Shown: piece after piece, positions 2,055-51,259 of the stretch
How positions within the stretch are numbered: position 1 is the first letter of the stretch
How the letters are laid out: each line of letters begins with the position of its first letter
Source of the DNA: an uncultured Pseudomonadales bacterium
GTDB lineage: Bacteria > Pseudomonadota > Gammaproteobacteria > Pseudomonadales > Porticoccaceae
NCBI GenBank assembly: GCA_943788895.1
Contig: CALSRZ010000005.1
Location: 434,001-498,000 of the forward strand
DNA: 64,000 nucleotides
Direction: 5' to 3'
Notes under the pieces: model-generated
Told to the model about the DNA's origin: nothing
The model's database searches: none
What the model saw: only the letters and a program-made list of their open reading frames with translations
Made by a program: the position numbers and the translations under genes

Positions 2055-2083
2055 TACTACAGTTTTATGACAGAAGTATGTCT
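2055..2083 (-). promoter_or_regulatory. Candidate degenerate Pho box upstream of gap-arsJ
   Basis: On the + strand TACTACA (2055), TATGACA (2066) and TATGTCT (2077) stand in exact 11-bp phase. The middle one is a perfect reverse complement of the PhoB half-site TGTCATA; the others match at about 5 of 7 positions. The site is 74-97 bp upstream of the gap start. Otherwise the 1982-2304 interval shows nothing I can name. Weak evidence, since two half-sites are degenerate. Confidence 0.25.
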
Positions 2084-3278: not shown

Positions 3279-3327
3279 TTTTCGCCATTAAATGAGTCAT
3301 CTACAAATGAATGATAAGGTTATTACC

Positions 3328-4029
3328 ATGCCGAAGCATACGGTTTTAATCGTCGATGACGAAGCGGCGATTCGAGATATGTTGTGTATAGCACTGGAAG
3401 CGGCAGATTTTAATGTATTGGATGCAGAGAATGCGCAACAGGCTCACGCCGCGATAATTGATAAACAACCTGATCTGGTCTTGCTGGATTGGATGATGCC
3501 TGGCACCACCGGGCTGGAATTATTGCGTCGGCTTAAGCGTGATGACCTGACCGCCAAGATCCCGGTGATTATGCTTACCGCCAAAGCTGAGGAAGATAGC
3601 AAAATTTCCGGTCTTGATGCCGGCGCCGATGACTTTATTCCCAAACCCTTTTCTCCGCGCGAGTTGATTTCCCGCGTCAAGGCCGTTCTTCGACGCGTTG
3701 GCCGTGAGGAACTTCAGGAGCCTATCTCTATAGGTCAGCTGGTGTTTGACCCGATCGGACACCGGGTGAGTATTGCTGATCAGGCGATCAATCTGGGTCC
3801 CACCGAATACCGGCTTTTGCAATTCTTTCTCACCCACCAAGAGCGAGTTTACTCCCGCGATCAGATTCTCGATTATGTCTGGGGTGGCAATGTCTACCTC
3901 GACGAGCGAACGGTGGATGTTCATATTCGCCGTCTGCGTAAAGCAATTTCGGTTGCAGGACATGAAAACTATGTGCAGACTGTGCGCGGAGCAGGCTACC
4001 GTTTTTCAGCCCAGCTAAAAAATGCTTAA
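3328..4029 (+). CDS. phoB: Phosphate regulon response regulator PhoB
   Basis: 233 aa from the ATG at 3328. In-frame ATGs at 3292 and 3307 would add 12 or 7 residues but have no ribosome binding site, whereas TAAGG precedes 3328, and this start puts the phosphorylated Asp at residue 54 (LLDWMMPG) as in E. coli PhoB. Receiver domain about 1-120 with acidic pair DD at 10-11; OmpR-type winged helix about 130-230, with the ERTVDVHIRRLRKAI recognition helix. Cytoplasmic activator binding Pho boxes under phosphate starvation. phoR follows 17 bp downstream; Pho boxes occur before phoB, the porin, pstS and the TonB receptor. Confidence 0.97.
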   Translation: MPKHTVLIVDDEAAIRDMLCIALEAADFNVLDAENAQQAHAAIIDKQPDLVLLDWMMPGTTGLELLRRLKRDDLTAKIPVIMLTAKAEEDSKISGLDAGADDFIPKPFSPRELISRVKAVLRRVGREELQEPISIGQLVFDPIGHRVSIADQAINLGPTEYRLLQFFLTHQERVYSRDQILDYVWGGNVYLDERTVDVHIRRLRKAISVAGHENYVQTVRGAGYRFSAQLKNA

Positions 4030-4046
4030 TAGAGGGTGTAAATTCG

Positions 4047-5321
4047 TTGCGACCGGGAATGCATACAGAGATATGGCGTGTGGTATTGGTATGCCTGTTC
4101 TCCCTGTTATTTGGTCTGAGCCTCGGCGCTCCCTTTGAATTATTTCTCGCCGGAGTCGTTATCTACGTACTCTGGACCTTCCGCATAATCAATCTGATAT
4201 TCAGCTGGATCGATAAAGGTATGCGCGGCACTCCTCCGGACACCGACGGTGTTTGGGGCGAAATTAGCGATACGTTAAATCGCCAGCGCCGCCGCCATCG
4301 CCGCACCCAAGAAAAAATGCGCCGCACCATTAATCGAGTCACTCGGCTAACTGAAGCCCTGGGCGAAGGTATTTTGGTATTGCGCAGTGATCTGACCATA
4401 GACTGGTGGAATAGCTCTGCGGCAAAGCTCTTGGGTCTGCGCTCTGTTGATCGCGGCAGCGCAGTGACAAATTTAATTCGCGACCCGGCTTTTGTCAGTT
4501 ATATCACCCAGAAAGAATTTGTTGGCGCTCTCAAACTGAACACTTCCAGTCCCACCGGCACTATGCAGCAATTTGCCGCCTCATACTTTGGTGCCGATGA
4601 AATTGTTCTGGTGGTTACTGATATAAGCCGCCTCGACGGCCTTGAGCAGTTGCGCAAAGAATTTGTTGGCAATGTTTCCCATGAGTTGCGCACACCGCTG
4701 ACGGTGATGCGCGGTTATCTGGAAACCCTACAGCTTATGCCTTCGGACAATCCGATTTCCAGTAAGGCGTATGCCCAGATGTCTGAGCAGGTGGATCGGA
4801 TGCAATCCCTGGCTGACGATCTAATCCTGATTTCTAGGCTGGAGGCCGATGACCAGAAGCCGACTTTTGAAAAGGTAGGTCTGGCGGATCTGCTTAAAGA
4901 AATTGTCGCTGAAGCTGAATTACTAAGTAATGGTAAGCATAAAATAACCCTCAACTGCCCAGAGGCGGTTAGTGTTGAGGCGGATCAAAAGGATATCCGC
5001 AGTGTGTTGGGCAATCTGGTCTTTAATGCGGTGCGCCACAATCCGGATGGGGCATCTGTTGCGGTCACTGTGACCAGCTATGGCGGCTTTATTAATATCT
5101 CGGTCAAGGACAGTGGCAAGGGTATAGACCCGATGGAGATTCCGCGACTCACCGAACGTTTTTATCGCGGCGATAGCAGCCGTAACTCCGATACCGGTGG
5201 CACAGGTTTGGGTTTGGCAATTGTGAAGCATGCGTTGGGACGCTGCGGTGGGCAGCTGACCATCAACAGCAGGTTGGGGCAGGGTGCGGAATTTATCTGC
5301 CGGCTGCCGGTGTCTCAATAA
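4047..5321 (+). CDS. phoR: Phosphate regulon sensor histidine kinase PhoR
   Basis: 424 aa from a TTG at 4047 (AGAGGG at 4031 as ribosome binding site); an ATG at 4059 is the alternative. Two hydrophobic segments (about 10-28 and 30-52) anchor it in the inner membrane with almost no periplasmic loop, as in PhoR. Then a linker, a PAS domain (about 95-195), HisKA with VSHELRTP (His212), and HATPase_c with N box (FNAVRHNPDG), DSGKGI and GGTGLGLAI. It phosphorylates PhoB when PhoU/Pst signal low phosphate. Same operon as phoB. Confidence 0.96.
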   Translation: MRPGMHTEIWRVVLVCLFSLLFGLSLGAPFELFLAGVVIYVLWTFRIINLIFSWIDKGMRGTPPDTDGVWGEISDTLNRQRRRHRRTQEKMRRTINRVTRLTEALGEGILVLRSDLTIDWWNSSAAKLLGLRSVDRGSAVTNLIRDPAFVSYITQKEFVGALKLNTSSPTGTMQQFAASYFGADEIVLVVTDISRLDGLEQLRKEFVGNVSHELRTPLTVMRGYLETLQLMPSDNPISSKAYAQMSEQVDRMQSLADDLILISRLEADDQKPTFEKVGLADLLKEIVAEAELLSNGKHKITLNCPEAVSVEADQKDIRSVLGNLVFNAVRHNPDGASVAVTVTSYGGFINISVKDSGKGIDPMEIPRLTERFYRGDSSRNSDTGGTGLGLAIVKHALGRCGGQLTINSRLGQGAEFICRLPVSQ

Positions 5322-6390: not shown

Positions 6391-6450
6391 ACAAATTCCC
6401 CAAATTTTAAAGTCAGTTGACAATTATATGGTTAGAAACCAAGGCTGAAA

Positions 6451-6501
6451 TATGACAGCCACATGACAACTCTATGTATTAAATATGACATTCATATGAC
6501 A
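6451..6501 (-). promoter_or_regulatory. Tandem Pho boxes for the porin (five half-sites in 11-bp phase)
   Basis: On the + strand: TATGACA (6451), CATGACA (6462), TATGTAT (6473, degenerate), TATGACA (6484), TATGACA (6495). All spaced exactly 11 bp, reading toward the porin on the minus strand. Three are perfect complements of TGTCATA and one has a single change. Confidence 0.88.
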
Positions 6502-6561
6502 GTCATAAAATTTACATAATAGATTCATAAAAATTACATAAATTGTTATTTCAGGGCCCTC

Positions 6562-6579
6562 TGTCATATTTGTGTCATA
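6562..6579 (+). promoter_or_regulatory. Pho box for pstS
   Basis: TGTCATA, TTTG, TGTCATA: two perfect half-sites 80 bp before the pstS start. Weaker same-strand half-sites occur upstream in 11-bp phase (ATTCATA 6490, AGTCATA 6501, TTACATA 6512, ATTCATA 6523, TTACATA 6534). Confidence 0.92.
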
Positions 6580-6658
6580 TAACTTCAATATCCTCATTTG
6601 CGTCATCAAAGTTAGTTTAATCAACAGCACATTACCGTGCTTGAATGTGGAGGTTTAT

Positions 6659-7717: not shown

Positions 7718-7740
7718 TGCTCAGAAGTTGTCACAGTACG

Positions 7741-7770
7741 GCCCGGCTGAATAAGCCGGGCTGTTTTTTT
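7741..7770 (+). terminator. Attenuator/terminator between pstS and pstC
   Basis: Stem GCCCGGCT (7741-7748), loop GAATA, stem AGCCGGGC (7754-7761), then TG and seven T. Located 24 bp before pstC with no separate Pho box behind it, it should let only part of the transcription continue, giving more PstS than membrane subunits. Confidence 0.9.
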
Positions 7771-7794
7771 ATCTGACGAGATTCTGCCAGCAAT

Positions 7795-9183: not shown

Positions 9184-10456
9184 GTCCGTAGATAACTTAG
9201 AAAAGATCAGGAAGTCCCTGAGTCGCCGCAACCGCGCAGAAAAGCGTTTCAGGTTTTACGGTGTTACAGCAGTATTAATCGGTTTGGCAGCGGTAATGCT
9301 GCTATTTACCGATATTGTCAGCAAAGGTCACGGCGCTTTTCGTATCGCTTATTTGCAGCTCGATATCACCTATGATCAGGATCTGATCGGTATAGATAAT
9401 CTAACTGATCCGCAGCAGTTAGCGCTGGGCAATTGGCAGGCAATGCCCAAAGTCTCTCTGCGTAATCAGTTCCCCGATGTTTCCGGTCGCAAAGATAAGC
9501 GCAGCTTATATGGCTTGGTCAGTAATGGTGCCGGCTTCGATCTTAAAGATCGTCTGTTGGAGAATCCTTTACTCCTGGGTGATAGTGAGACGCTGTGGGT
9601 ATTGGCTGACGATGATATCGATACCTATTACAAATCCTGGTTGGATGGTGAGCCCTACGATGCGCGACTGACTGCTAAGCAGGTCGCATGGATTCACGAG
9701 CTTCACGATCAGGGCAAGATACGCCTGCAGTTCAACTCTAATCTGTTTACCCGCGGTGATTCCCGAGAGCCAGAACAGGCCGGTATTCGCGGTGCCGTTA
9801 TGGGCTCGCTGCTGACATTGATCCTGACCCTGCTGCTGTCCTTCCCGATTGGTGTTTCCGCAGCTATTTATCTTGAAGAGTTTGCGCCGAAAAATGCCTG
9901 GACGGATTTTATTGAGGTCAATATTAATAATCTGGCTGCTGTGCCATCGATTATTTTTGGTCTGTTGGGTCTGGCGATCTTTATTAATTTTTTCCATGTG
10001 CCAAGGTCGGTGCCGATCGTCGGTGGTCTGGTATTAACCCTGATGACATTGCCGACGATTATTATTACCAGCCGTGCGGCAATTAAGTCAGTACCGCCGT
10101 CAATTCGCGAAGCGGCACTGGGTATGGGTGCCTCCAAGTACCAGATGGTCTTGCACCATGTGTTGCCGTTGGCACTGCCCGGTATGTTGACCGGCGCAAT
10201 TATCGGTATGGCCCAGGCGCTGGGTGAATCAGCACCGCTGCTAATGATTGGTATGGTCGCCTTTATCGTCGATATTCCCGGCGGCTTTAGCGATCCGGCA
10301 ACCGTGTTGCCGGTACAAATTTTCCTCTGGGCAGACAGTCCTGAGCGAGCCTTTATCGAAAAGACCTCCGCTGCCATTATGGTGCTGCTGAGCTTTTTAA
10401 TTATTATGAATACATCAGCCGTATGGTTGCGCAAGCGCCTCGAACGTCGTTGGTAG
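9176..10456 (+). CDS. pstA: Phosphate ABC transporter permease PstA (long form)
   Basis: 426 aa, start ATG overlapping the end of pstC (translational coupling). One N-terminal helix (about 27-46), a roughly 150-residue periplasmic insertion, then the six-helix permease core from about residue 205 ([20 protein letters not shown]). The EAA-loop region reads [23 protein letters not shown]. Partner of PstC and PstB in phosphate import. Followed after 13 bp by pstB, with AAAGGAT upstream of that start. Confidence 0.95.
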
Positions 10457-10469
10457 AAAGGATATAACT

Positions 10470-11342
10470 ATGAATCAGAATGCCTCAACTGCAGGTACAA
10501 AGCCTGCGAAGGAAGCAAAGCCTGAAGCTATGCAGACTCTCGAGTTAACCGATAATGAAGCGACGGTGGGCCAGTGTTTTACTGACAAGCCAAAGATGAG
10601 TATGCGCAACGTCAATGTTTTCTATGAAGACAAGCAGGCCATTCACGACGTGAGTGTGGATATCGCCAAGAATGAAGTGATCGCCATGATTGGCCCCTCG
10701 GGCTGTGGCAAGTCAACATTCTTGCGCTCGTTAAACCGCATGAATGACACGGTTGATGGTTGCCGGGTCGAGGGCAAAATCTGCATGGACGGTGAAGACC
10801 TCTATGCGCCAAAGCTCGATGTGGTTGAGTTGCGAGCTAGAGTGGGCATGGTGTTCCAGAAGCCAAACCCATTTCCAAAATCTATCTATGACAATGTCGC
10901 CTATGGTCCAAAGTTGCACGGACTGGCCGACAGCCGTGTGGATCTCGATGAGATCGTTGAAAAAAGCCTGCGCAAAGCCAGCCTCTGGGATGAAGTTAAA
11001 GAGCGCCTGCATCAGGCGGGTACAGGTCTCTCCGGTGGTCAGCAGCAGCGACTCTGTATTGCCAGAGCTATTGCCGTTAGCCCAGAGATGATCCTGATGG
11101 ATGAGCCCTGTTCGGCACTGGATCCAATTGCCACGGCAAAAATTGAAGAGCTGATCGAAGAACTGAGCGAGAATTTCACTATTGCCATAGTGACCCACTC
11201 GATGCAGCAGGCGGCACGAGTGTCTCATCGCACAGCCTATTTCCATCTCGGTCGTTTGATTGAAGTAAACCCAACCGAGCAGGTATTCACTATGCCTGCC
11301 CACCGGTTAACTGAAGCTTATATTACTGGTCGTTTCGGCTAG
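10470..11342 (+). CDS. pstB: Phosphate ABC transporter ATPase PstB
   Basis: 290 aa; E. coli PstB is 257, the extra residues being an N-terminal low-complexity extension of about 40. Walker [10 protein letters not shown], signature [14 protein letters not shown], Walker [13 protein letters not shown], and the H-loop THSMQQAAR are intact. The Gly-Cys-Gly Walker A and THSMQQA are characteristic of PstB. It powers phosphate import at the cytoplasmic face and, with PhoU, reports phosphate status to PhoR. Confidence 0.97.
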
Positions 11343-11372
11343 AATTAATAGACAGGAGGTAAGGGGAGCAAT

Positions 11373-12053
11373 ATGGACAAAATGAAGTTCGAAAATCATT
11401 ACATGAAGCAGTTCGACGAGGAGCTCGAAGAGATTCGCACCCGTCTAATGGAGATGGGCGGCAAAGTTGAACAGCAGCTGCAAAACGCCATTCGCGCCGT
11501 CAGTGATGCAGATAGCAAACTGGCCGAAGAGGTGATTAAGGAAGAGAAGTTCGTTGATGAGATGGAAGTCGATATCGATGAAGCCTGTATTCTTATTATT
11601 GCCCGTCGCCAGCCTGCGGCCAGCGATCTGCGTCTGGTGATGATGGTGACCAAAGCGGTAAACGATTTGGAGCGTATTGGCGACGAAGCGAAAAAGATTG
11701 CCAATCACGCGGTTATCCTCGCCGGTGAAAGCAAGACATCCGAAGGTTACACTGAGGTTCGTCACCTGGGTCAGTCAGTTGTCAGCATGCTATCCAATGC
11801 ACTGGATGCCTTTGCGCGTTTTGATGTAGATGCTGCAATGCGCACTATAGAAGAAGACAAGCAGATCGACCTCGACTACAAAACAGCCCTGCGCGAGTTA
11901 GTCACCTATATGATGGAAGATCCTCGCAGCATCAGCCGTGCGATTAATATTCTCTGGGTAGTTCGTTCTCTGGAGCGCATTGGCGATCACGCGAAAAATC
12001 TCTGCGAACAAATTGTCTTTGTTGTTAAAGGTAAAGATATCAGGCATCAGTAG
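11373..12053 (+). CDS. phoU: Phosphate transport regulator PhoU
   Basis: 226 aa; ribosome binding site AGGAGG at 11354-11359. All-helical with two PhoU repeats (about 20-115 and 120-215), each with the ERIGD(E/H)AK motif: ERIGDEAKKIANHAV in the first and ERIGDHAKNLCEQIV in the second, the metal-binding signatures of PhoU. Negative regulator linking Pst transport to PhoR. Last gene of the pst operon, in the canonical pstSCAB-phoU order. Confidence 0.97.
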   Translation: MDKMKFENHYMKQFDEELEEIRTRLMEMGGKVEQQLQNAIRAVSDADSKLAEEVIKEEKFVDEMEVDIDEACILIIARRQPAASDLRLVMMVTKAVNDLERIGDEAKKIANHAVILAGESKTSEGYTEVRHLGQSVVSMLSNALDAFARFDVDAAMRTIEEDKQIDLDYKTALRELVTYMMEDPRSISRAINILWVVRSLERIGDHAKNLCEQIVFVVKGKDIRHQ

Positions 12054-12100: not shown

Positions 12101-12136
12101 TGATGCTTCTTGCGCAAGGTAAGAAGCAATTAAATC

Positions 12137-12187
12137 TGTCATATTTAAGTCATTTTTCTGTCATTAAACATTCACGCCATCGTCATT
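12137..12187 (+). promoter_or_regulatory. Extended Pho box upstream of the TonB receptor
   Basis: Half-sites in exact 11-bp phase: TGTCATA (12137), AGTCATT (12148), TGTCATT (12159), ATTCACG (12170, degenerate), CGTCATT (12181). Four good half-sites are more than the two needed for a Pho box. The TonB receptor starts 97 bp downstream. Confidence 0.87.
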
Positions 12188-12283
12188 TTTGACTGTTAAT
12201 TTGCATCCTTATTGATGCAAGGCGCATTTGTGTGCGCCTCAAATAATTGAATTTAACAGTCATGACGCGAGGTTGGGTGGAAG

Positions 12284-15200
12284 ATGGCCAGAAAATGGTT
12301 TTTTGTATTGAGTTTGGTAGCTTCATTTATAGCGCCCAAGGCGTTGGCTGAGGACCTTTTTGTCCTTGTGTTTCTTGAAGATGCACCGCTTCGACACGTC
12401 AAAGTTGCTGTCGACGGCAAGATTGTTGGCGTCACTGATGGCAAGGGTCTGATTCAGGCGTCATTGAAGCCTGGTGCCCACAAGCTCTATTTGATTGATG
12501 ACGATCTGGCGATTCCGGTTAGATTTAATATCCCCAGAAACGGCGAAGTTGAAGTCTCAGCTGTATTCAGCCGAGAGCAGGGTGTTGAGCCGGTGGTAAA
12601 AAGTCAGGCCTTTACTGCTGACAGCGATGCCTCTGGTTATATTGCCGGTGTGGTTACCTCACCTTCTGGGCTGCCGATTGTCGGTGCAACTGTTGAAGTT
12701 GTCGATATTCAATTATCCGCAGAGACAAACGCTGAAGGTGTTTACACCCTTGAGCTTCCCCGTGGTGTGCACAGTGTTGAAATCACCAGAGATGGATACA
12801 GAACTTCCAGTGTTGATGCTATTCGAGTATTTGCTGATCTGGGTGTTAATGCGCGCTTTAAGTTATTGAAAAAGCCGCCAGCGGATTCCGCGATTGCACT
12901 GCCGACACCACGTCTGGAAGAGGTGGTTACTCTGGGTGTATTTAACCCAACCGAAGGCGCTGGTGATATTCAGCGATACGCTTCGTCAATTGTCAGCGCG
13001 ATGGATGCCGATCAGATCGCCCGCTTTGGTGACAGTGATGTGGCACTGGCGATTGGCCGAATTGTTGGCCTCAGTGTCAGTGAAGGCAAGTACGCCAATG
13101 TTCGTGGTCTCGACGGCCGCTATATCGCTACCAACTTTAATGGCATTCTGATGCCGAGTACCGATCCACTGCGTCGCGATATCCAGCTCGATCTTTTCCC
13201 ATCCAATATTGTTGAATCGATTGCCGTTCAAAAATCATTTTCAGCAGATCAGCTGGCATCGACAACTGGTGGCTCGATCGCTGTAAAAACCAAAGGCCTG
13301 CCCGATGAACGCGTTGGCAGCCTGTCAGTGTCCACCGGGTTTAACAGCAGCTTTACCGGTGATGATGTGCAGGGCTATCGCGACTCAGTTACTGAGTGGG
13401 CTGGCTTTGACAGCGGCTTAAGAGATATTCACAGCGGTGTATTGGAAGCCACAAACGGCGGTACTTCACTGACTATCTGTGATCCTGATATAGCTGATAT
13501 CTGTACTCGCCCTGAAGTGGCACTTGCCTACGCGCTTACCTTTAAGCCCGACTATGATCTGGAGCCGGTTAATTCCAATCCAGATATTGGCTTTGATGCG
13601 GACTTCGGTGATCGCTTTGAGTTTGCTGAAGGCGAGCTCGGTTACTTTGTTGCCGCCTCCTATGGACGCACAACTGGCTACCGCGGCGACGCAAGCCTGA
13701 GCAACCCAATTAACCTGACCGGTATGTATAACCGCACACAGGACACAGTTTCTGTGAATGGCTACGGCGTGGTTGGCTATGAGTTTGACCGCGGTGAAAT
13801 TCTCTCCAAGACAACCCTGTTGCGCTCTACAGATGACACCTCGAGAAACACCGTTGCTGTGGATATTGAAGGCGTTAACCGCGACAAGACAATTTTAGAA
13901 TATGTGCAGCGCCAGCTGTTCTCCCAGAGCGTCAGTGGTCTCTATGATTTTTACCTGGGTGATCTGGAGAGCAAGATCGATTGGCGTGTTGGCTATTCGG
14001 AAACTGATCGTATCGAACCCGATCGTCGCCAGTACTTCCTGCAGAACGGCAGCCTGGCAACATCGTCACTTGAGCGTCGCTGGTCAGATCTAAACGAAGT
14101 CAGTAATGATATTGGTTTTGACTACACTGGCTCTTTCGAGTGGGGCGCTGAAAATTTCACCTCTCTGGTAGTTGGTGCTCTGGCTTCGGATAAACAGCGA
14201 ACAGTCGATCTCTACCGTTTCGGTATTCGACTGGGTGATGATCCAATTTCCCTGAATGTAACTGATGGCATTGAATCTCTATTGTCGGTTGAAAATTTTG
14301 CCGCCGATGCATTTAGACTGCGACCAGCGACTGGATCGACCGACTCCTACGCGTCCGCAGAAAAAGTAGAGGGCTATTACCTAAAAGCGATCAATGAATT
14401 GGGCAGCGCCTGGACAGCCGAATTGGGTGCGCGCTTTGAAAGCTTTAGTCAGGATATTAGCTACCCTAATTCCTCATCAGCTGCGGCTGGCACTCTGGAA
14501 CACGAAGCTTGGTACCCGGCATTTAACCTGTCTTGGCGCGCCACTGAGGAACTTCAGTTGCGCTTGGGCTACAGCCAGACAGTTTCATACCCCGGTCTTA
14601 TCGAGCGCTCTGCATCACAGTCCTATGACCCATCAACGGATGATCCTATTTTTGGTACACCGGAGCTGATGGTTTCCGAGATCGATAATCTCGATTTGCG
14701 CATGGAGTACTACTTTGGTGAGAGCAATAGTGTTTCGTTGGCACTCTTCAATAAGGAAATTATCAATCCTGTAGAGCGTGCAATTCCAGACGCTTCTGGT
14801 TCCGCTGCCGATGGTATTACCTTTAGAAATCAGGAAGCCGCAGAACTCGATGGCATCGAATTTGATTTCAACAGCGTGGTATTTGATCGCGATGATCACT
14901 CGGTTTTCGTCAACGGCAATATTACATTTATCGATTCTGCCGTAACTCTGGGCGCCAAGTCGCTGCAGCTTGAAGGTGCCGGTTCCAATGGCCGCCAGCT
15001 ACAGGGCCAGTCTGAATACCTGGCGAACCTGCAGATTGGTTACGACCATTATCCATCCGAGCAGAAGGTCACTCTGTTGGTTAACTATTTTGACGATCGA
15101 ATCTTCCGCACTGCGCGAGGCGCTGCACTGGGGCCGGTTGTTGAAGTTGGGCGAACCCTTGTTGATATGAATTACGAGAAGTCCTTCTCAGAACAGTGGA

Positions 15201-15322
15201 CGGTAAAACTCAAGCTTAAAAACCTAACGGATGAGCCAGTCAGCTATACGCAAAACAATAACTTAATCGAGGTTTATGAAGTCGGAACATCGATCAGTTT
15301 ATCTCTGGATTACAGACTTTAA
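12284..15322 (+). CDS. TonB-dependent outer-membrane receptor, probable Pho-regulon member
   Basis: 1012 aa. Signal peptide to about residue 22 (APKALAED). Two beta-sandwich repeats follow: about 22-110, and a CarboxypepD_reg-like domain at about 120-195 (ASGYIAGVVTSPSGLPIVGATVEV). Then a linker, a plug domain from about 210 to 340 (VAVQKSFSADQLASTTGGSI-like end), and a 22-strand barrel to a C-terminal SLDYRL. It takes an unidentified substrate across the outer membrane using TonB energy. PhoB half-sites upstream point to a phosphorus source such as a phosphorylated organic compound. The next gene, 89 bp downstream without a terminator between, encodes its likely surface partner. Confidence 0.9.
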   Translation: MARKWFFVLSLVASFIAPKALAEDLFVLVFLEDAPLRHVKVAVDGKIVGVTDGKGLIQASLKPGAHKLYLIDDDLAIPVRFNIPRNGEVEVSAVFSREQGVEPVVKSQAFTADSDASGYIAGVVTSPSGLPIVGATVEVVDIQLSAETNAEGVYTLELPRGVHSVEITRDGYRTSSVDAIRVFADLGVNARFKLLKKPPADSAIALPTPRLEEVVTLGVFNPTEGAGDIQRYASSIVSAMDADQIARFGDSDVALAIGRIVGLSVSEGKYANVRGLDGRYIATNFNGILMPSTDPLRRDIQLDLFPSNIVESIAVQKSFSADQLASTTGGSIAVKTKGLPDERVGSLSVSTGFNSSFTGDDVQGYRDSVTEWAGFDSGLRDIHSGVLEATNGGTSLTICDPDIADICTRPEVALAYALTFKPDYDLEPVNSNPDIGFDADFGDRFEFAEGELGYFVAASYGRTTGYRGDASLSNPINLTGMYNRTQDTVSVNGYGVVGYEFDRGEILSKTTLLRSTDDTSRNTVAVDIEGVNRDKTILEYVQRQLFSQSVSGLYDFYLGDLESKIDWRVGYSETDRIEPDRRQYFLQNGSLATSSLERRWSDLNEVSNDIGFDYTGSFEWGAENFTSLVVGALASDKQRTVDLYRFGIRLGDDPISLNVTDGIESLLSVENFAADAFRLRPATGSTDSYASAEKVEGYYLKAINELGSAWTAELGARFESFSQDISYPNSSSAAAGTLEHEAWYPAFNLSWRATEELQLRLGYSQTVSYPGLIERSASQSYDPSTDDPIFGTPELMVSEIDNLDLRMEYYFGESNSVSLALFNKEIINPVERAIPDASGSAADGITFRNQEAAELDGIEFDFNSVVFDRDDHSVFVNGNITFIDSAVTLGAKSLQLEGAGSNGRQLQGQSEYLANLQIGYDHYPSEQKVTLLVNYFDDRIFRTARGAALGPVVEVGRTLVDMNYEKSFSEQWTVKLKLKNLTDEPVSYTQNNNLIEVYEVGTSISLSLDYRL

Positions 15323-15411
15323 TTTTACAAATCGGTAGTAGGTAAAGCGGAATTTACCATTTGGGATATTTCGCTAAAAAATTTAAAACACATTAAATAG
15401 GAAAGCTAAAC

Positions 15412-18222
15412 ATGAGAACTAATCTATATGTAGGGTGCCTGCTAGCCTCTATGGCACTCGCAGGTTGTGATGGCAACAGCGAGAGCGCAGGTGACATTAC
15501 GGTAAACGTTGAAGGCGATGTTATTGATAACAGCGTTACAACAACAGAGACGCCAGATGTTGTAACGCCAGTTGTCACTGGTCTCTGTGCTCAGGTTGAA
15601 GAAGCAGCGTTCGTTGCTTTCAACGATGATTGCTCACAGGGCACGGTAACAGGCACTATCGACACTGATTACACATTTTTGCAAGAAGTTAACTACATCC
15701 TCAGCGGTGTTGTTCAGGTTGGTAACGGCAATGTAGCGATCGCTTCTCAGGTTGAGTACGACGCAGTTGTTGCTCAGGGTGTTGAGCTGACAGTAGAAGC
15801 TGGTTCAGATGTTAAAGCTGCCGCTGATGGCGTTCTGCTGGTAACTCGCGGTTCTCAATTGATTGCTGATGGTTCAGCAACCAGCCCAATTACATTTAGC
15901 AGCCTCGACGCTGACTATGATGGCATGGGCGAATGGGGTGGCGTAGTGGTTCAGGGCTTCGCACCACAGTATGGCCAGGGCGACACTGGCGCTTGTTTCG
16001 CCGACGGTGAAGTCTGGTGTAACGTTCAGGGCGAAGGCGGTGACTTCGTTAAAGAATACGGCGGCAATATTGCCGATGATAACAGCGGTGTTATCCGTTA
16101 TGTGCGTATTGCTGAAGGCGGCCTGATCGCTGGTCCAAACAACGAGATCAATGGTCTGACTCTGCAAGGTGTTGGTCACGGCACTGTGATTGACTACATT
16201 CAGGTTCACGGTAACCAGGATGATGGTATCGAGTGGTTCGGTGGTACAGCTAACGTTACTCACGCTGTTCTGACGGGCAATGACGATGATGATATCGACT
16301 TTGATGAAGGTTACATGGGTAACATTCAGTACGCGCTGATTATCAAAAACCAGACCCCTGGTGCTGTTCCTGTTGGTTCAAATGATCCCCGTGGTATCGA
16401 GCTGAACTCTTCTGATGCCAGCTACACACCTCAGACTGCTGGTGTAATTGCCAACGTTACTATTATCGGTGGTGATGCAGCTAACTCTAAAGGTGAGTTC
16501 GGTATGCGTCTGCGCGGTTCAGTAACGGCTGCGATCCACAACTCAGCGGTAACTGGCTACGATGTAACCTGTGCCCGTATCGATGATTCAGATAACGACG
16601 GTGATTCAAACACGCCTAAGATTGATACACCTATCACTCTGAACAACTTCCTCTGTGACACTGTAGGTGTTGCCTTTAATAAGGAAGATCCGGTAGCTGG
16701 TTCAACGGTTATTGAAGAAGGTATCAACTTTGACGACAACCTCGCCATCATCAATTCATCGGCAATGCTCGGCGCTCCAACTGAGATTGCCGCCTTTGAT
16801 AACGGTTCAGGCTTTGTATTCGACTCAACTAACTTTGTTGGTGCTGTAGATCCTTCTGCTTCAACGCCATGGTGGTCTGACTGGACAATTCCTGGCTCTG
16901 TTGGATTCCAGGAAGAAGTGCAGGAAGAGAGCTTTGCAGTATGTAACGCCTCTAAGACTGTTTGTACTATGACTGGCACTATCGACAAAGACTACACAAT
17001 GGTTGCTGGTGTTGAATACCGTTTAGAAGGTGTTGTAAAAGTGGGTAACGGCAATGTTGAGATCACGTCTGTTGAAGATTACGACGCAGTGGTTGCTCAG
17101 GGTGTAACCCTGACGATCCGCGCTGGTGTTGACGTCAACGCATTTGCTGACGGCGTTCTGCTGGTAACTCGTGGTTCCAAGCTGATTGCTAACGGTTCTG
17201 CTACAAGCCCAATTACTTTCAGCAGCCTTGATACTGGCTATGATGGTACTGGCGAGTGGGGCGGTGTAATCGTTCAGGGCTTCGCACCACAGTATGGTCA
17301 GGGCGACACTGGTGTTTGTTATGCCGACGGCGAAGCCTGGTGTAACGTACAGGGTGAAGGCGGAGACTTTGTTAAAGAGTACGGTGGCGCTATTGCCGAC
17401 GACAACAGCGGTATTATCCGTTATGTGCGTATCGCTGAAGGCGGCTTGATCGCTGGTCCAAATAACGAGATCAACGGTCTGACTCTGCAAGGTGTTGGTC
17501 ACGGTACATTGATCGACTATGTTCAGGTTCACGGTAACCAGGATGATGGTATCGAGTGGTTCGGTGGTACTGTAAATGTGACTCACGCGGTTCTTACCGA
17601 CAATGACGATGATGATATCGACTTTGACGAAGGCTATATGGGTAATATCCAGTACGCGCTGATTATTAAGAATCAAACCCCTGGTGCTGTTCCCGTTGGT
17701 TCAAACGATCCCCGCGGTATCGAGCTGAACTCTTCTGATGCCAGCTACACACCTCAGACTGCTGGTGTTATCGCCAACGTTACTATTATTGGTGGTGATG
17801 CAGCTAACTCAGCTGGTGAGTTCGGTATGCGTCTGCGCGGTTCGGTAACGGCTGCAATCCACAACTCAGCGGTAACTGGCTACGATGTAACCTGTGCCCG
17901 TATCGATGATTCAGATAACGACGGTGATGCAAACACGCCGAAGATCGATACACCTATCACTCTGAACAACTTCCTCTGTGACACTGTGGGTGTTGCCTTT
18001 AATAAGGAAGATCCAGTTGCAGGTTCAACGGTTACTGAAGAAGTGATTGTTCTCGATGCCAACTATGCCATCACTAACGACAGTGCATCTGTACCAGCTA
18101 CAGATATCACTGCCCTGGACAATGGTTCTGGCTTCGTCTTTGACTCAACTGACTTTGTTGGTGCGGTTAAAGAAGGAACTACGCCATGGTTCAGCGAGTG
18201 GGTGATTGAAGGTTCTTTGTAA
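15412..18222 (+). CDS. Duplicated repeat lipoprotein, partner of the Pho-linked TonB receptor
   Basis: 936 aa. Signal peptide with lipobox LAGC (Cys19); the +2 residue is Asp, which in E. coli would favour inner-membrane retention, though this rule may not hold here. The mature protein is two near-identical halves (about residues 75-490 and 510-935). Each begins with a TGTID-DYT segment, then short strands with Gly turns (RYVRIAEGGLIAGPNNEING, HGNQDDGIEWFGG, NDDDDIDFDEGYMGNIQYA) that look like a right-handed parallel beta-helix, with acidic clusters that could bind calcium. No catalytic motif is recognised. It probably lies in the same transcript as the TonB receptor and may capture its substrate at the surface. 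Function unknown. Confidence 0.8.
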   Translation: MRTNLYVGCLLASMALAGCDGNSESAGDITVNVEGDVIDNSVTTTETPDVVTPVVTGLCAQVEEAAFVAFNDDCSQGTVTGTIDTDYTFLQEVNYILSGVVQVGNGNVAIASQVEYDAVVAQGVELTVEAGSDVKAAADGVLLVTRGSQLIADGSATSPITFSSLDADYDGMGEWGGVVVQGFAPQYGQGDTGACFADGEVWCNVQGEGGDFVKEYGGNIADDNSGVIRYVRIAEGGLIAGPNNEINGLTLQGVGHGTVIDYIQVHGNQDDGIEWFGGTANVTHAVLTGNDDDDIDFDEGYMGNIQYALIIKNQTPGAVPVGSNDPRGIELNSSDASYTPQTAGVIANVTIIGGDAANSKGEFGMRLRGSVTAAIHNSAVTGYDVTCARIDDSDNDGDSNTPKIDTPITLNNFLCDTVGVAFNKEDPVAGSTVIEEGINFDDNLAIINSSAMLGAPTEIAAFDNGSGFVFDSTNFVGAVDPSASTPWWSDWTIPGSVGFQEEVQEESFAVCNASKTVCTMTGTIDKDYTMVAGVEYRLEGVVKVGNGNVEITSVEDYDAVVAQGVTLTIRAGVDVNAFADGVLLVTRGSKLIANGSATSPITFSSLDTGYDGTGEWGGVIVQGFAPQYGQGDTGVCYADGEAWCNVQGEGGDFVKEYGGAIADDNSGIIRYVRIAEGGLIAGPNNEINGLTLQGVGHGTLIDYVQVHGNQDDGIEWFGGTVNVTHAVLTDNDDDDIDFDEGYMGNIQYALIIKNQTPGAVPVGSNDPRGIELNSSDASYTPQTAGVIANVTIIGGDAANSAGEFGMRLRGSVTAAIHNSAVTGYDVTCARIDDSDNDGDANTPKIDTPITLNNFLCDTVGVAFNKEDPVAGSTVTEEVIVLDANYAITNDSASVPATDITALDNGSGFVFDSTDFVGAVKEGTTPWFSEWVIEGSL

Positions 18223-18568
18223 ATTAAAAATGTTTCGATAAGTTTTAAAGGCCCCGAAAGGGGCCTTTTTTTTGCCTTGAAGAAGCATCCTCTGGCCCAT
18301 GCGGTCGACATTGCAAAAGAGTTGTATTGAGCCCATCAAGCTTAGAATAACCCTTCTATTGCCCGCAGTTTCGGCGCTTTTTATTTGCATTTTGCCACTA
18401 AAACCCCATTGGTCGCATATTTTTAGCCTGTGAACGCTTAGTGGGTTGGTTTTGCGCTAAACCGGTGTAGTCTTCAAGAGAATATATAAAAAATGTTTCC
18501 CCGGGTTACTGGCTTGGGGGAAAGCTAAAAAAACGGGTAGAGACCCGAATCAATTGAGGGGAATAATT
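18223..18568. other. Intergenic region before the CBM-like lipoprotein
   Basis: After the terminator at 18250-18273 I see no gene, RNA or clear operator. ORFs called here on the minus strand run through the terminator and the downstream end of the 936-aa gene and are shadows. Confidence 0.6.
18250..18273 (+). terminator. Rho-independent terminator
   Basis: GGCCCC (18250-18255), loop GAAA, GGGGCC (18260-18265), eight T. Ends the TonB receptor-lipoprotein transcript. Confidence 0.93.
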
Positions 18569-20440
18569 TTGAAGATCAAGAGCTTAGCACCTTTATACTT
18601 ATTGGCTTTAACACTAACTTTACAGGCTTGTGGCGGAGGCGGCGCTGGAATTCTTCCAGAACCTGACACTACAGGCGGTGGTACTACTGATGGAACTACC
18701 GATGGCGGTACTACAGACGGTGGTACTACTGATGGAACTACCGATGGAACTACCGATGGAACTACCGATGGAACTACCGATGGAACTACCGATGGAACTA
18801 CCGATGGAACTACCGATGGCGGTACTACAGACGGCGGTACTACAGATGGTGGCGCTACAGATGGCGGCGCTACAGATGGCGGCGCTACAGGTACTCCTGG
18901 CGTTGAAATGATCGAAGGCTTTGGTGGTGCAGTATTTGATGAGGCTGCCTCTTCTTATACCTTCCCAGCAGGTTCAGAAGTATGGGCTGGTTTCGCTAAC
19001 CTGAATGTTGATATCTATCCCTTCACTTTTGCTAATGGCGGCTCTATCACCTTTACCGCTGCGGTTGCAGCGGGCGGCGCCGATACCAATGTTTATTTCC
19101 GGTTTGAGCGTCTGCCATTCCCGGATGTTGATCCATCCTTTGACTTAGACCCTGTTTTGATTGTCGGTGAAACTGAGCTGGAATACACAGTGACTATTCC
19201 TGCGCAAGATGCAGCGAATACCTACGAATCTTTCCTTCTATATGTAGTTGAGCAAGATCAGACGGTAATCATTAAAAATATCGTTGTAAACGATGACGGT
19301 GGAAGCTCTGATGATGCGAGTGGAACTACTGACGGTGGTTCTACTGATGGTTCTGCCGACGGCGGCACTACTGACGGATCTACTGACGGATCTACTGACG
19401 GATCTACTGACGGATCTACCGATGGCGGCACTACTGATGGATCTACTGACGGCGGCAACACAGATACTGTTGGTGTTGAAATGATTGAAGGCTTTGGTGG
19501 TGCAGTATTTGATGAAGCTGCCTCTAGCTACACTTTCCCAGCAGGTTCAGAAGTGTGGGCTGGTTTCGCTAACCTGAATGTTGATATCTATCCCTTCACT
19601 TTTGCTAATGGCGGCACGATCACCTTTACTGCAGCGGTTGCGGCGGGTGGCAGTGATACCAATGTTTACTTCAGATTTGAGCGCCTGCCTTTCCCAGATG
19701 TTGATCCATCCTTTGACTTAGACCCTGTTGTGATCAGTGGCGAAACTGAGACGCAATACAGCGTAACTATTCCTGCACAGGATGCGGCGAATACTTACGA
19801 GTCTTTCCTCTTGTATGTGGTTGAGCAAGATCAGACGGTGATCATCAAAGACATTGTTGTAACTGATGATGGTGGAAGCACTGCTGACGGCGGCACTACT
19901 GATGGTGGTACTACCGATGGCGGCGCTACTGACGGAGGCACTACCGATGGTGGAGCGACTGATGGTGGAGCGACTGATGGTTCAACCGATGGCGGTGCTC
20001 AAGAAGCTCCATTTGTTGAAATGATTGAAGGCTTTGGTGGCGCAGTATTTGATGAGGCTGCCTCTTCCTTTACTTTCCCAGCAGGTTCAGAAGTATGGGC
20101 TGGTTTCGCTAACCTGAATGTTGATATCTACCCCTTCACTTTCGCTAATGGTGGCACGATCACCTTTACGGCAGCGCTTGCAGCCGGTGGATCTGATACC
20201 AATGTTTATTTCCGCTTTGAGCGTTTGCCATTCCCGGATGTGGATCCCTCGTTTAACTTAGAAAACGTACTGATCAGCGGTGAAGCTGAGCTGGAATACA
20301 GCGTAACTATTCCTGCACAGGATGCGGCGAATACTTACGAGTCTTTCCTCTTATATGTGGTTGAGCAAGATCAGACGGTGATCATCAAAGATATTGTTGT
20401 AACCGATGATGGCGGTAGTACTGGAAATTCACCACAGTAA
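18569..20440 (+). CDS. Non-catalytic lipoprotein with three CBM-like modules
   Basis: 623 aa from a TTG at 18569 preceded by GAGGGGAAT. The alternative TTG at 18554 is rejected because the paralogue at 20679 begins identically (TTG, then KIKxLAPLYLL). Lipobox LQAC at Cys21 followed by Gly5-rich sequence. Three copies of a roughly 125-residue module (starting [10 protein letters not shown]; about 112-240, 307-435, 490-615), each with FPAGSEVWAGFANLN and FRFERLPFPDVDPSF, joined by long Thr-Asp-Gly/Ser-Asp-Gly linkers. The module is also on the GH81 protein next door, so it is probably a beta-glucan-binding beta-sandwich. No enzyme domain is visible: a surface binding protein by inference. Confidence 0.8.
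   Translation: MKIKSLAPLYLLALTLTLQACGGGGAGILPEPDTTGGGTTDGTTDGGTTDGGTTDGTTDGTTDGTTDGTTDGTTDGTTDGTTDGGTTDGGTTDGGATDGGATDGGATGTPGVEMIEGFGGAVFDEAASSYTFPAGSEVWAGFANLNVDIYPFTFANGGSITFTAAVAAGGADTNVYFRFERLPFPDVDPSFDLDPVLIVGETELEYTVTIPAQDAANTYESFLLYVVEQDQTVIIKNIVVNDDGGSSDDASGTTDGGSTDGSADGGTTDGSTDGSTDGSTDGSTDGGTTDGSTDGGNTDTVGVEMIEGFGGAVFDEAASSYTFPAGSEVWAGFANLNVDIYPFTFANGGTITFTAAVAAGGSDTNVYFRFERLPFPDVDPSFDLDPVVISGETETQYSVTIPAQDAANTYESFLLYVVEQDQTVIIKDIVVTDDGGSTADGGTTDGGTTDGGATDGGTTDGGATDGGATDGSTDGGAQEAPFVEMIEGFGGAVFDEAASSFTFPAGSEVWAGFANLNVDIYPFTFANGGTITFTAALAAGGSDTNVYFRFERLPFPDVDPSFNLENVLISGEAELEYSVTIPAQDAANTYESFLLYVVEQDQTVIIKDIVVTDDGGSTGNSPQ
18676..18894 (+). repeat. In-frame TDG linker minisatellite 1
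   Basis: 12-bp units (GATGGAACTACC and variants) encoding Thr-Asp-Gly repeats, nearly identical over 18730-18815; similar shorter arrays sit at 19313-19464 and 19876-20000 between the later modules. Unit lengths are multiples of three, so gain or loss would change linker length without frameshift. Confidence 0.9.
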
Positions 20441-20496
20441 TAAAACAGTAAGGTTCTGCCCTTTATGGGGGCAGAATGACTGACTGACCCAAAAAA

Positions 20497-20519
20497 GCCC
20501 TCTTAGGAGGGCTTTTTTT
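20497..20519 (+). terminator. Rho-independent terminator
   Basis: GCCCTC (20497-20502), loop TTAG, GAGGGC (20507-20512), seven T. It separates the CBM-like lipoprotein from the GH81 gene, which then needs its own promoter in 20520-20678. Confidence 0.92.
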
Positions 20520-20678
20520 CGTTTAGAGACCCCATTTACCGCATTAGCAAATCAACTGGTCGAAAGCTTGTATCTTTTTTTGGGGTCAAGTTCATTATAT
20601 GTTGCAGAAAAAAAGGCTATTTAGCCAAATTACAAAAATCTAAAAAAACATAATTAGAGTAATTCGAGGGAGAAAATC

Positions 20679-23600
20679 TTGAAGATTAAGAACTTAGCGC
20701 CTTTATACCTATTGCTATCGATACTGACTTTGCAAGCCTGTGGTGGCGGTGGTGGCAGTATTTATTCAGGCGAGAGCCCCCTTCCGCCAGGTAATACTGA
20801 TGGTGGGACTACTGACGGTTCTGCCGATGGTTCAACTGACGGTTCAACCGATGGTTCAACTGATGGTTCAACTGATGGTTCTACCGATGGTTCTACTGAC
20901 GGTTCTACCGATGGTTCTACTGACGGTTCTACCGATGGTTCTACTGACGGTTCTACCGATGGTTCTACTGACGGTTCTACCGATGGTTCAACCGATGGTT
21001 CTACCGATGGTTCTACTGACGGTTCTACCGATGGTGTCTCAACCCCACTTGGTGCGGTTGAAATGATCGAAGGCTTTGGTGGTGCAATTGTTGATGGTAG
21101 TAACTTTACCTATCCAGCAGGTGCAGAAGTATGGGCTGGTTTTGCTAACCTAAATACTGATATCTATCCGTTTGCCTTTGCCAATGGCGGTTCGATTACC
21201 TTTACAGCAGCAGTCGCAGCGGGCGGCAGTGATACCGGTGTCTACTTTAGATTTGAGCGTTTGCCTCATCCAGATGTCGACCCTTCCTTTAATCTCGATC
21301 CAGTAATGATCGTCGGTGAAGCTGAGCAGCAATATACAGTCGCTATTCCGCCACAGGCTTCAGCCAATACATACGCATCATTCCTGATGTATGTGGTTGA
21401 TCAAGATCAGACGGTAATGGTCAAAGATATTGTCGTGACTACACACAGTAATAATTCGGGTGGAACTGATGGTGGTTCTTCCGATGGCGGGACTACTGAT
21501 GGCGGTTCAACTGACGGTGGTTCAACTGACGGTGGTTCAACTGACGGTGGTTCTACAGACGGTAGCTCAACCGCAGTTGGTGCGGTTGAAATGATCGAAG
21601 GCTTTGGTGGTGCAGTGTATCTGGAAGCAGACTCATCCTACGGCTTCCCATCCGGCGCAGACGCATGGGCTGGCTTTGCTAACCTCAATGAAGATATCTA
21701 TCCCTTCACCTTTGCCAATGCAGGTTCGATTACCTTTACGGCAGCGGTTGCACCGGGCGGCAGTGATACCAATGTCTATTTCAGATTTGAACGTATGCCT
21801 TATCCGGATGTTCAGCCTGCCTTTGACTTGCCGCCAATTTTGATCAGCGGTGAAGCTGAGCAGGAATATACTGTGAATGTTCCATCACAGGGTGCGTCAA
21901 ATACTTACTCATCATTCCTGATGTATGTGGTTGAGCGAAATTCAACGGTTATCGTTAAAGATATCGTTGTGACGGATGATGTTGGCCAAGCAGAACCCAA
22001 TCCGGGTACGCCATTACCGCCCAGTACGACTGACTATACGGCCCTCTCCTTATGGCGCCGGTAGTGTTTCCGATACCATCAATGTTGCCAGCTACCGCTG
22101 TGCAGTTGATTACGGCAACTGGATTTACAATGCTGGTGTTACAGAGCCGGCTATTGCCGCCTGTGATGCAGAGTCAAGAATCCCTACAGGAACACCTACA
22201 AGGTTGTCTCCACAGTTGACCGGTGAAGCCCTAAATAAACCAGTGCCAACCCATAAGTGGTGGGGATCGGTTTCATTTGTTGGTGAGATGACTGTTGGTG
22301 ATGTCAGCAAAGCGGCCTATATCACACCAGATCCAATCAGAGCTCGTATCTCCAATAAAGGCGCGCGTATCAACGGTATTCCAAGTGGCTTTAAAGACTT
22401 CGGCAATAAATTCCCAAGATATGAAGGCCCAGTGCCCTTTGATGAAGTGTTTGAAGGCGTGGCAATTGCCAACTCGGCTTACAGCAATATGGATGCCTAT
22501 GTTGCGGATCACAGCGATGGCTCAGTGACCGTACAGTGGAAATCTGGTACTACCCAAGTGATGGATGCCACCTTTGTTCACGGCTCACCCTATGTCTACT
22601 TTCAAGGTTTATCAGGGTAATCCTCTGCTGCGCACACTGCGTGCAGATGGTGGAGAAAAAGGTACTTTCTACAATCAGGGTAACCACCTGGGTATCTGGA
22701 CTAATGTCTCCGGTATTCGCAATAATATTTTATTGAGTGGTGAGGGAGTAACTACCTACTCTAATATCTCGAGCAATGAGATCACCATTAACAATACCTC
22801 AAAAGAATTTACTCTGACCTATCTTCCCGAGATAGGTGGCGATTCAAGTAACAGTATGAGCAACTTCTTTGCTGCCAAAGCGCGCAACAAAGTAGCTTCC
22901 GTTGAGATTGGTTACACGGTTGATCGAAGCACCAATACAGTTACCGTTAATCACAGCTACCTAGATGCTCAGGGCAATCCAGCGGATACTATTGTTGGCC
23001 TGCACCCACTGCACTGGAAGAACTCTGACCAGGCAACCTCTGCTTACAAGATCCGCAGTGCTCGCGGTATGATCAAGTTCGCTGAGACAGATGGCTTTAG
23101 TTATGACCTGCCATTTACCGGTGTTCTGCCAACCATGCCATCAATTTCAGGATCCTATGATCAGGCTACCCTTGAAGCGCTGGTTACCTCCTTTGTAAAT
23201 GCGGGTGAGGATCCGAGTGGTATGACAGCACTGATACCTACTGGTCAGGCAAAGGCTATGGCAAGGTTGCTGAAACTGCTGCTCTGGCACAGTCCATTGG
23301 TATGGACGCTGCAGCGGGCGAGTTGATCGACTGGCTGAAAGTAGAGCTTGCCGACTGGTTTACCGCAGAGACCGATGGTGAGCTGGATATCAATAAATAC
23401 TTCGCCTATGACGAAGAGTGGGATGCCCTGTTTGGTATCGAAGAAGCTTACGGCTCACACCAGCGTATGGCTGATCACCACTTCCACTACGGCTACTTTG
23501 TGCGCGCTGCGGCTGAGATCTGTCGTGTCGATGTTGCCTGGTGTGGCGACGATCAGTACGGCCCAATGATTGAGCTGCTGATTCGTGACTATGCGGGTGA

Positions 23601-51148: not shown

Positions 51149-51165
51149 TCGAATCCATAAAAGCA

Positions 51166-51218
51166 GAACTCTAAAAAAGAGCTCTAAAAAAGAGCTCTAA
51201 AAACAGATCTGTAAAAAC
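51166..51218 (+). repeat. 13-14-bp tandem repeats after the GH16-like gene
   Basis: GAACTCTAAAAAA, GAGCTCTAAAAAA, GAGCTCTAAAAAC (13 bp), AGATCTGTAAAAAC (14 bp), each with a TAA. They begin 17 bp after the stop codon and continue more loosely to 51237. Confidence 0.9.
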
Positions 51219-51259
51219 AGAATATAACGATAAAAAAGTAGTATTAGTGGGGAAAAATT

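Follow-up and report, generated by a model that had tools for sequence, protein, structure and literature searches.

A TonB-dependent receptor and an ElpS-family lipoprotein encoded behind phoU, with a predicted PhoB operator, in an uncultured Porticoccaceae bacterium

Gene order and predicted operator behind phoU

We analyzed a 64,000-nucleotide stretch of DNA (the window; contig CALSRZ010000005.1 of assembly GCA_943788895.1, positions 434,001 to 498,000, forward strand) from an uncultured Pseudomonadales bacterium of the Porticoccaceae, focusing on two adjacent genes that encode a TonB-dependent receptor (TBDR) and an acidic lipoprotein. Both genes were located downstream of pstS-pstC-pstA-pstB-phoU (6572-12053). 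Pfam identified the members of this pho cluster as phoR (PF11808), a PhoB-type response regulator, pstC/A/B-type transporter parts, a pstS-type binding protein, and phoU. The features of the locus, in window coordinates, were as follows.

12136..12186, plus strand: predicted PhoB operator with half-sites at 12136, 12147, 12158, and 12180 in 11-bp phase (pattern scan)
12284..15322, plus strand: TBDR of 1012 amino acids (Pfam and structure model)
15412..18222, plus strand: acidic lipoprotein of 936 amino acids with two tandem ElpS-family domains, at about residues 54-504 and 499-936 (open reading frame, repeat alignment, and profile)
18247..18268, plus strand: intrinsic-terminator-like site closing the predicted operon (9-pair stem with 6 G-C pairs, T-run)
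11373..12053, plus strand: phoU, the last gene of pstSCAB-phoU and the upstream neighbor (Pfam)
3292..5321, plus strand: phoB (3292-4029) and phoR (4047-5321), with a Pho box at 3261 (PhoR family PF11808; response regulator with Trans_reg_C)
6441..6590, no strand assigned: divergent Pho boxes between a porin gene (5437-6423, minus) and pstS (6572-7717, plus) (Pfam and pattern scan)

The pair directly followed phoU, as a first-pass annotation made from the sequence alone had stated, with a gap of 230 bp; the gap between the TBDR and lipoprotein genes was 89 bp. That annotation had also described the lipoprotein gene as following without a terminator, and our hairpin scan found no terminator-like site in these 89 bp. 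Besides the site that closes the predicted operon, two weaker plus-strand matches fell within the receptor gene (12349 and 13617), and the scan as a whole returned 14 sites against 13.1 in shuffled sequences, i.e., no excess. The TBDR and lipoprotein genes are predicted to be co-transcribed as one unit.

The consensus of the PhoB half-site is CTGTCAT. The operator upstream of the TBDR gene comprised CTGTCAT (12136), AAGTCAT (12147), CTGTCAT (12158), and TCGTCAT (12180). An earlier count of four good half-sites in exact 11-bp phase was correct in number and phase; these half-sites extended across five positions, however, because position 12169 was a poor half-site and the fourth good one sat 22 bp past the third. 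A pattern of three half-sites (triple pattern) matched the window twice, at the operator with no mismatch and at pstS with three, and gave no match in 100 shuffles of the window. When applied to the whole genome (six contigs, 93.1% complete), it gave 11 matches at three mismatches or fewer, as compared with two for a reversed control. The operator was the sole zero-mismatch match in the genome, and no other match had fewer than two mismatches; of the two others with two mismatches, one lay 5' of phoB and the other between the porin gene and pstS. Because a two-half-site pattern at three mismatches was uninformative genome-wide (160 matches versus 143 for the reversed control), only the triple pattern was used at this scale.

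The lipoprotein, its receptor, and their described relatives

The lipoprotein carried a LAGC lipobox at residues 16-19 and had a calculated pI of 4.05, and its two halves were 82% identical across 437 columns, which agreed with its initial description as a duplicated acidic protein of 936 residues. In the window, the halves differed by 66 synonymous and 23 amino-acid changes in 305 codons. No Pfam or NCBIfam family was assigned, with only weak below-cut-off matches to unrelated families, and the sequence search for solved relatives returned none that was credible (three chance-level matches, E 3 to 6.5). Structural prediction of the second half, performed with 81 homologous sequences, yielded a right-handed beta-helix (pLDDT 90.5, pTM 0.93). 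The proposal of a beta-helix-like lipoprotein thus holds for the half that was modeled, and each half is predicted to adopt this fold.

Domain architecture varied within the family. Among 136 lipoproteins, with truncated proteins counted as they stand, two domains were found in 49 and three in 3. The halves were nearest sisters in the domain tree for 9 of the 49 two-domain proteins. For the window protein and that of genome G016, the first halves paired across species and the second halves likewise, indicating that the doubling predates their split. Locus L088 encoded a 1357-residue lipoprotein with three tandem domains, and an Alteromonas macleodii plasmid (L238) encoded one of similar length, with phoR upstream and DUF3450-ExbB genes downstream. 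Of 155 homologues, 140 had a loose lipobox pattern within their first 75 residues, as compared with 36 that had it at residues 200-270 and with 5 of 140 TBDRs that had it at the N-terminus.

The closest described system was found in Caulobacter crescentus, where ElpS (CC0170) is a phosphate-starvation lipoprotein encoded beside the TBDR CC0171 and genes for a type II secretion system (T2SS); ElpS is surface-exposed at the outer membrane and is released (PMC2996285; this and the other papers cited are represented here by excerpts). The comparison was made through a stand-in for the Caulobacter NA1000 sequence, namely locus L241 of genome G499, which was chosen from 29 loci of the family including Brevundimonas for its LAGC at 17-20 and Asn38, with a GTG start counted. 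The LAGC position and Asn38 are published ElpS features (PMC2996285, excerpt). The gene order at L241 was lipoprotein-TBDR-gspC, as published, followed by gspD-E-F. The window lipoprotein was 29-30% identical to the L241 protein across 442-511 columns (pairwise BLAST E 4e-33), and three features of the family (domain homology, an N-terminal lipobox, and an adjacent TBDR) were present. On sequence grounds, the window lipoprotein belongs to the ElpS family.

For the Flavobacterium lipoproteins FI, FII, and FIII, identities of 31-36% to the Caulobacter protein (coverage 50-54%) have been reported; the first two adjoin TonB-dependent transporters that are strongly induced by phosphate depletion (Fjoh_3856/3857 and Fjoh_0546/0545) (PMC8115612, excerpt). 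As far as the excerpt goes, these pairs resemble the window pair in combining a transporter with a hypothetical lipoprotein, one of them within a phoBR cluster. They differ in belonging to Bacteroidota, and their homology to the window protein is indirect, via the Caulobacter protein.

With these matches to ElpS/CC0171 and to FI/FII with their transporters, the earlier statement that the pair matched no described system no longer stands; the window pair is a gammaproteobacterial variant of the little-understood but already described ElpS/CC0171 system. The two share a homologous lipoprotein family, an adjacent TBDR, a phosphate-starvation response (predicted for the window pair), and T2SS-linked relatives in the published order. 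The window differs in that the receptor gene comes first, the receptor carries an extra N-terminal domain and a CarboxypepD_reg domain, the lipoprotein is doubled, and the pair lies behind phoU and has Pho boxes of its own. Reading of the open reading frames (ORFs) revealed no T2SS genes directly beside the window pair, and gspC of this genome (G000:C5:43119) shared the contig with the pair at a distance of about 400 kb. New in the window are therefore the receptor-first order, the extended receptor N-terminus, the position after phoU, and the replacement by a second version in part of the genus. The phoU-linked, receptor-first form was not described in the literature found, in which subscription journals were thinly covered.

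The receptor contained CarboxypepD_reg (residues 120-194), Plug (PF07715), and barrel (PF00593) domains, the latter two above the Pfam cut-off, in line with its first-pass description as a TonB receptor with such an N-terminal domain. In the structure model (pLDDT 83.6, pTM 0.73, weaker in the N-terminal part), two predicted beta-rich domains, at about residues 24-111 and at CarboxypepD_reg, preceded the plug and barrel. Among ten receptors searched with Pfam, CarboxypepD_reg was present in the window receptor, L027, L195, L202, and L086, and not in L028, L029, L032, L079, and L241. A FastTree tree of 136 receptors grouped the window receptor with those of G016, G018, G019, G025, G035, and G156, all of which are receptor-first; G035 and G156 were on long branches, and their placement is unsure. 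In G017, G013, and G007 (L024 11208-14247, L036 2317-5273, and L034 11255-14091), the TBDR of the pair was represented by two ORFs instead of one, which may reflect sequencing error, decay, or switching.

Two other receptor-lipoprotein systems were considered. The first-pass term SusCD-like was apt for the layout, in which a TBDR and a surface lipoprotein serve a nutrient as in SusCD or PusCD of Bacteroidota. It does not extend to the proteins themselves: no Pfam or NCBIfam match to SusD was obtained for the lipoprotein, which is a predicted beta-helix, and the receptor scored 21.2 bits against the SusC family TIGR04056, far below the cut-off of 368.25. In TbpA-TbpB, a surface lipoprotein presents the substrate to a TBDR, and TbpA was among the Foldseek matches of the window receptor; that system acquires iron from transferrin, and the likeness is one of layout and fold match.

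Foldseek neighbors of the modeled lipoprotein domain, among the best 50 of 199 matches, included the alginate epimerase AlgG, a GH87 glucanase, and pectate lyases. The best E-value was 1.2e-3, with none at or below 0.001 and TM values of at most 0.35, which places the relation to solved beta-helices at the superfamily level. Such neighbors would be expected if the pair served PhoB-controlled glycan acquisition, with the beta-helix as a polysaccharide-active enzyme or binder that provides sugar or sugar-phosphate from algal or plant polymers. Flavobacterium FI and FII have likewise been modeled as polygalacturonase-like (PMC8115612, excerpt), and a GH81 gene follows the pair in several genomes. 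We nevertheless consider this explanation quite unlikely, given that a GH81 gene followed phoU without the pair in G004, so that the two are separable, and given the strong Pho boxes upstream of the pair.

Ten Asp/Glu residues were at least 90% conserved in the 81 rows of the alignment (E151, D166, E188, D213, D214, E217, D235, D236, D239, and E273), and the same ten were conserved to at least 90% in 42 rows found without the DDG pattern scan. Six of them fell at 213-239, and the spacing from D213/D214 to D235/D236 was 22 residues, about one coil. GH28 and GH87 enzymes have a carboxylate cluster on neighboring coils. The cluster of the lipoprotein could equally bind calcium. This cluster and the acidic pI are compatible with an alternative in which the TBDR imports a metal or chelate for Pho enzymes (e.g., Ca or Fe for PhoX-type phosphatases) and the lipoprotein is its metal-binding partner; the closest solved TBDRs, among the best 50 of 803 Foldseek matches of the receptor model, were also mostly iron-carrier receptors. 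Those matches were generic, however, covering TBDRs of many substrates and thus uninformative regarding the substrate (phmmer found no solved relative of the receptor), and neither PhoX nor PhoD was found in the 93.1%-complete genome. A role in metal supply is accordingly very improbable.

Pairing, Pho boxes, and the site after phoU across genomes

When 397 genomes sampled across the phylum were searched with a profile of the lipoprotein domain, 57 contained the family (E ≤1e-10). The best 80 loci of a separate scan with the pattern DDG[IVF]ExFGG, in which motif conservation is biased, formed a second (named) set; the sets share some genomes (e.g., L105/L132, L079/L172, and L120/L158), and related genera were not collapsed. 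Gene labels were derived from ORF calls with BLAST or HMM labels and counted within the stretches read per locus. The lipoprotein and a TBDR shared a locus, a looser criterion than adjacency, in 134 of 138 cases (named set, 78/80; phylum sample, 56/58). Under strict adjacency (same strand, ≤800 bp), 155 lipoprotein ORFs, genus relatives included, yielded 140 pairs; the remaining 15, some of them at contig ends or broken, had no TBDR within this distance on the same strand. The lipoprotein gene came first in 127 of the adjacent pairs and the receptor gene in 13. A plasmid search returned 21 records, and a TBDR was annotated beside the match in all four inspected, i.e., those of Alteromonas macleodii (behind phoR and a phosphate-binding protein), Pseudoalteromonas, and the Bacteroidota Hymenobacter and Aureibacter.

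The surroundings of the pair were diverse. Labels for phoB, phoR, pst, or phoU were found at 10/80 named and 9/58 phylum-sample loci, and ExbD/TonB labels at 6/80 and 12/58, respectively. In Alteromonadaceae and relatives, the pair was followed by genes for DUF3450, two ExbB, ExbD, TonB, and a TPR protein, resembling the Vibrio TonB2 operon, of which ttpB (DUF3450) is the first and ttpD the last gene (PMC6957404, excerpt). T2SS labels occurred at 28/80 named and 24/58 phylum-sample loci, and the T2SS link is thus not general. The T2SS-linked named loci included those of Xanthomonas (L128 and L179), Sphingomonas (L137 and L146), Sphingopyxis (L142), and Hyphomonas (L203). The cc0170-T2SS arrangement has been reported for Xanthomonas campestris (a gammaproteobacterium), Sphingomonas alaskensis, and Hyphomonas neptunium, and cc0170 homologues for Shewanella and Bacteroides (PMC2996285, excerpt); the PhoB regulon of Caulobacter includes the T2SS and various TBDRs (PMC11208175, excerpt).

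Among alpha- and gammaproteobacteria, the regions upstream of the pair were strongly enriched in Pho boxes. Two half-sites (≥11 of 14 letters) preceded 70 of 135 pairs, five of the 140 having been excluded for lack of a full upstream region, versus 94 of 1901 other upstream regions, a background that includes true Pho genes; for three half-sites (15 of 21), the counts were 51/135 and 78/1901. When the spacing was scanned from 8 to 25 bp, 11 bp gave 70 pairs, 22 bp gave 50, and all others gave 4-19. Among 100 permuted motifs, the highest count was 41, from the true motif shifted by one base, and the next best was 12, as compared with 70 for the true motif. The Pho-box pairs comprised 32/70 named, 28/53 phylum-sample, and 10/12 genus-relative pairs. 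A substantial share of the family is therefore predicted to be under PhoB regulation. The search across genomes that the first-pass annotation had proposed thus yielded both conserved pairing and Pho boxes.

We further surveyed the site after phoU in 23 genomes of the genus, including that of the window (G000). The window-type pair followed pst-phoU in six genomes (G000, G013, G016, G017, G018, and G019; phoU itself was not called in G013). A different, lipoprotein-first pair occupied the same site in five (G001, G002, G007, G011, and G022); its lipoprotein was a single-domain protein of 547 amino acids that shared 32-37% identity with the window protein where the two aligned. The tree included four of the five receptors, and these fell within the clade containing the Alteromonadaceae receptors, a placement subject to a long-branch warning. 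None of the eleven genomes with a pair combined one gene of each version. G014 had a 46%-identical receptor directly 3' of phoU, and G008 had a receptor fragment after phoU; a second contig of G008 encoded a receptor of 48% identity together with a fragment of a lipoprotein. An M20-peptidase-type protein was encoded after phoU in G003 and G006 and the GH81 protein mentioned above in G004; nothing of these kinds was found at the site in G012 and G021. In G005, G009, and G010, the contig stops close to phoU, and the search for phoU gave no result in G015 and G020. The site after phoU thus behaves as a variable slot, and any pair found there had both its genes from a single version.

These data bear on whether the lipoprotein is instead an ElpS-type accessory or activator of a secreted phosphatase, with the TBDR as a separate, co-regulated importer or sensor. 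Overexpression of ElpS raised extracellular alkaline phosphatase activity, and ElpS itself had none (PMC2996285, excerpt); a PhoA-type phosphatase is also present in this genome. The occurrence of both genes together in nearly all loci and the presence of both genes of another version at the same site within the genus fit a physical partnership better, and no Pho box of the triple kind was found near the PhoA gene. We thus judge the activator explanation unlikely.

Proposed function and further phosphate genes of the genome

In the explanation that we regard as probable, PhoB switches on a surface lipoprotein of beta-helix fold, which binds a substrate containing phosphorus for the receptor and perhaps cleaves it. 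Under low phosphate, phosphorylated PhoB would bind the tandem Pho boxes at 12136-12186, and the receptor and lipoprotein genes would be transcribed as one unit. The lipoprotein would then be lipidated and displayed at the cell surface, as is ElpS, where its two beta-helix domains may hold the substrate, most likely a polymer or a phospho-conjugate, on a carboxylate-lined face and might also hydrolyze it. Judging from its family and the conserved pairing, the adjacent TBDR would use TonB energy to bring the bound substrate, or a product of it, through the outer membrane, and periplasmic phosphatases and PstSCAB would subsequently take up phosphate. The analysis itself established the operator sequence and the gene pair with its family, predicted the fold, and showed that the pairing is conserved and that Pho boxes are enriched. 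The first-pass view of the pair as a phosphorus acquisition system is thereby partly supported, namely in its predicted Pho regulation, its predicted co-transcription, and the combination of a receptor with a putative surface lipoprotein for phosphorus.

Several observations weigh against phosphorus capture. The residue following the lipobox Cys (+2) in the window lipoprotein was Asp, as in 10 of the 140 homologues with a lipobox, and under the E. coli rule this is an inner-membrane retention signal rather than one for outer-membrane sorting (PMC2996285, excerpt). According to the same excerpt, deletion of elpS in Caulobacter left phosphatase activity unchanged, and CC0171 was expressed in rich and poor media alike. 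Since the fold match of the lipoprotein is at the superfamily level, an enzyme activity cannot be read off from it, and the receptor model matched TBDRs in general, mostly those for iron carriers. No pho/pst label was found in the stretches read for 119 of the 138 loci, and 59 had no Pho, T2SS, or TonB-system label at all. In addition, 65 of the 135 pairs fell below the strict Pho-box threshold, for which a fixed, E. coli-like consensus was used that may miss other variants. Homologues of the pair were nonetheless not consistently located beside non-phosphorus genes without Pho boxes, in view of the Pho-box enrichment.

A broader interpretation is possible and is offered tentatively. ElpS-type beta-helix lipoproteins and their receptors may constitute a general equivalent of SusCD that is under Pho control, uses an unrelated lipoprotein, and is common to Pseudomonadota and Bacteroidota. 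The beta-helix would be a surface enzyme that opens a phosphorus-rich polymer by means of a carboxylate active site on neighboring coils, and the pair would be swapped behind phoU as a specificity cassette.

In much of the ocean, phosphorus supply restricts growth, and the cargo of TonB receptors of Pho regulons is largely unknown. The present comparison joins Caulobacter ElpS and Flavobacterium FI/FII as one conserved receptor-lipoprotein system, for which it predicts a fold and identifies conserved residues. Should the lipoprotein prove to be an enzyme or a capture protein, its substrate would point to an unrecognized phosphorus source for which bacteria compete.

The compact genome identified here also contained a second set, in which the pair's Pho boxes and TBDR have a counterpart beside a phytase. 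Outside the pho cluster, the triple pattern matched at C1:86155, C1:86166, and C1:93443, with three mismatches each, and C1:86155-86193 was the sole place there with two neighboring matches.

G000:C1:86155-89907 (L038:6155-9907; genes from 86233), outside the window: second set of tandem Pho-box-like sites, TBDR, and phytase (pattern and PF02333)

The sites at C1:86155 and C1:86166 preceded a TBDR gene (L038:6233-8731) followed by a gene for a phytase (PF02333, E 2e-53) whose N-terminus carried LGGC. This set resembled the window pair in having Pho boxes, a TBDR, and a protein with a lipobox; it differed in that a known enzyme family, which we take to have a beta-propeller-type fold, replaced the beta-helix. 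The genome is thus predicted from sequence to have two sets of Pho box, TBDR, and lipoprotein, one of them with a lipoprotein of a known phosphorus-enzyme family. The third site (C1:93443-93470, minus strand; L038:13443-13470) lay about 50 bp 5' of an acyltransferase-PAP2-glycosyltransferase gene group, the control of which by this site would fit a possible phosphate-starvation remodeling of lipids.

Further observations were made in the window. In the region 5437-6501 (minus strand), the porin gene divergent from pstS had several overlapping upstream Pho-box matches and likely encodes a phosphate-starvation porin. A two-half-site Pho-like match with two mismatches (2056-2073, minus strand), a pattern near chance genome-wide, was located 5' of a glyceraldehyde-3-phosphate dehydrogenase gene (974-1981). 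Directly past the terminator (18554-22064), two lipoprotein-like ORFs contained long TDG-rich low-complexity runs and repeated EMIEGFGG domains. The GH81 (laminarinase-type) gene at 20679-24432 consisted of several overlapping ORFs where relatives have one long ORF, possibly owing to frameshifts or decay. A glycan cluster (48683-60291) encoded GH16- and GH5-type proteins with CBM6/CBM35 domains, and included a TBDR plug ORF at 51260-52969, with a second ORF as its possible continuation.

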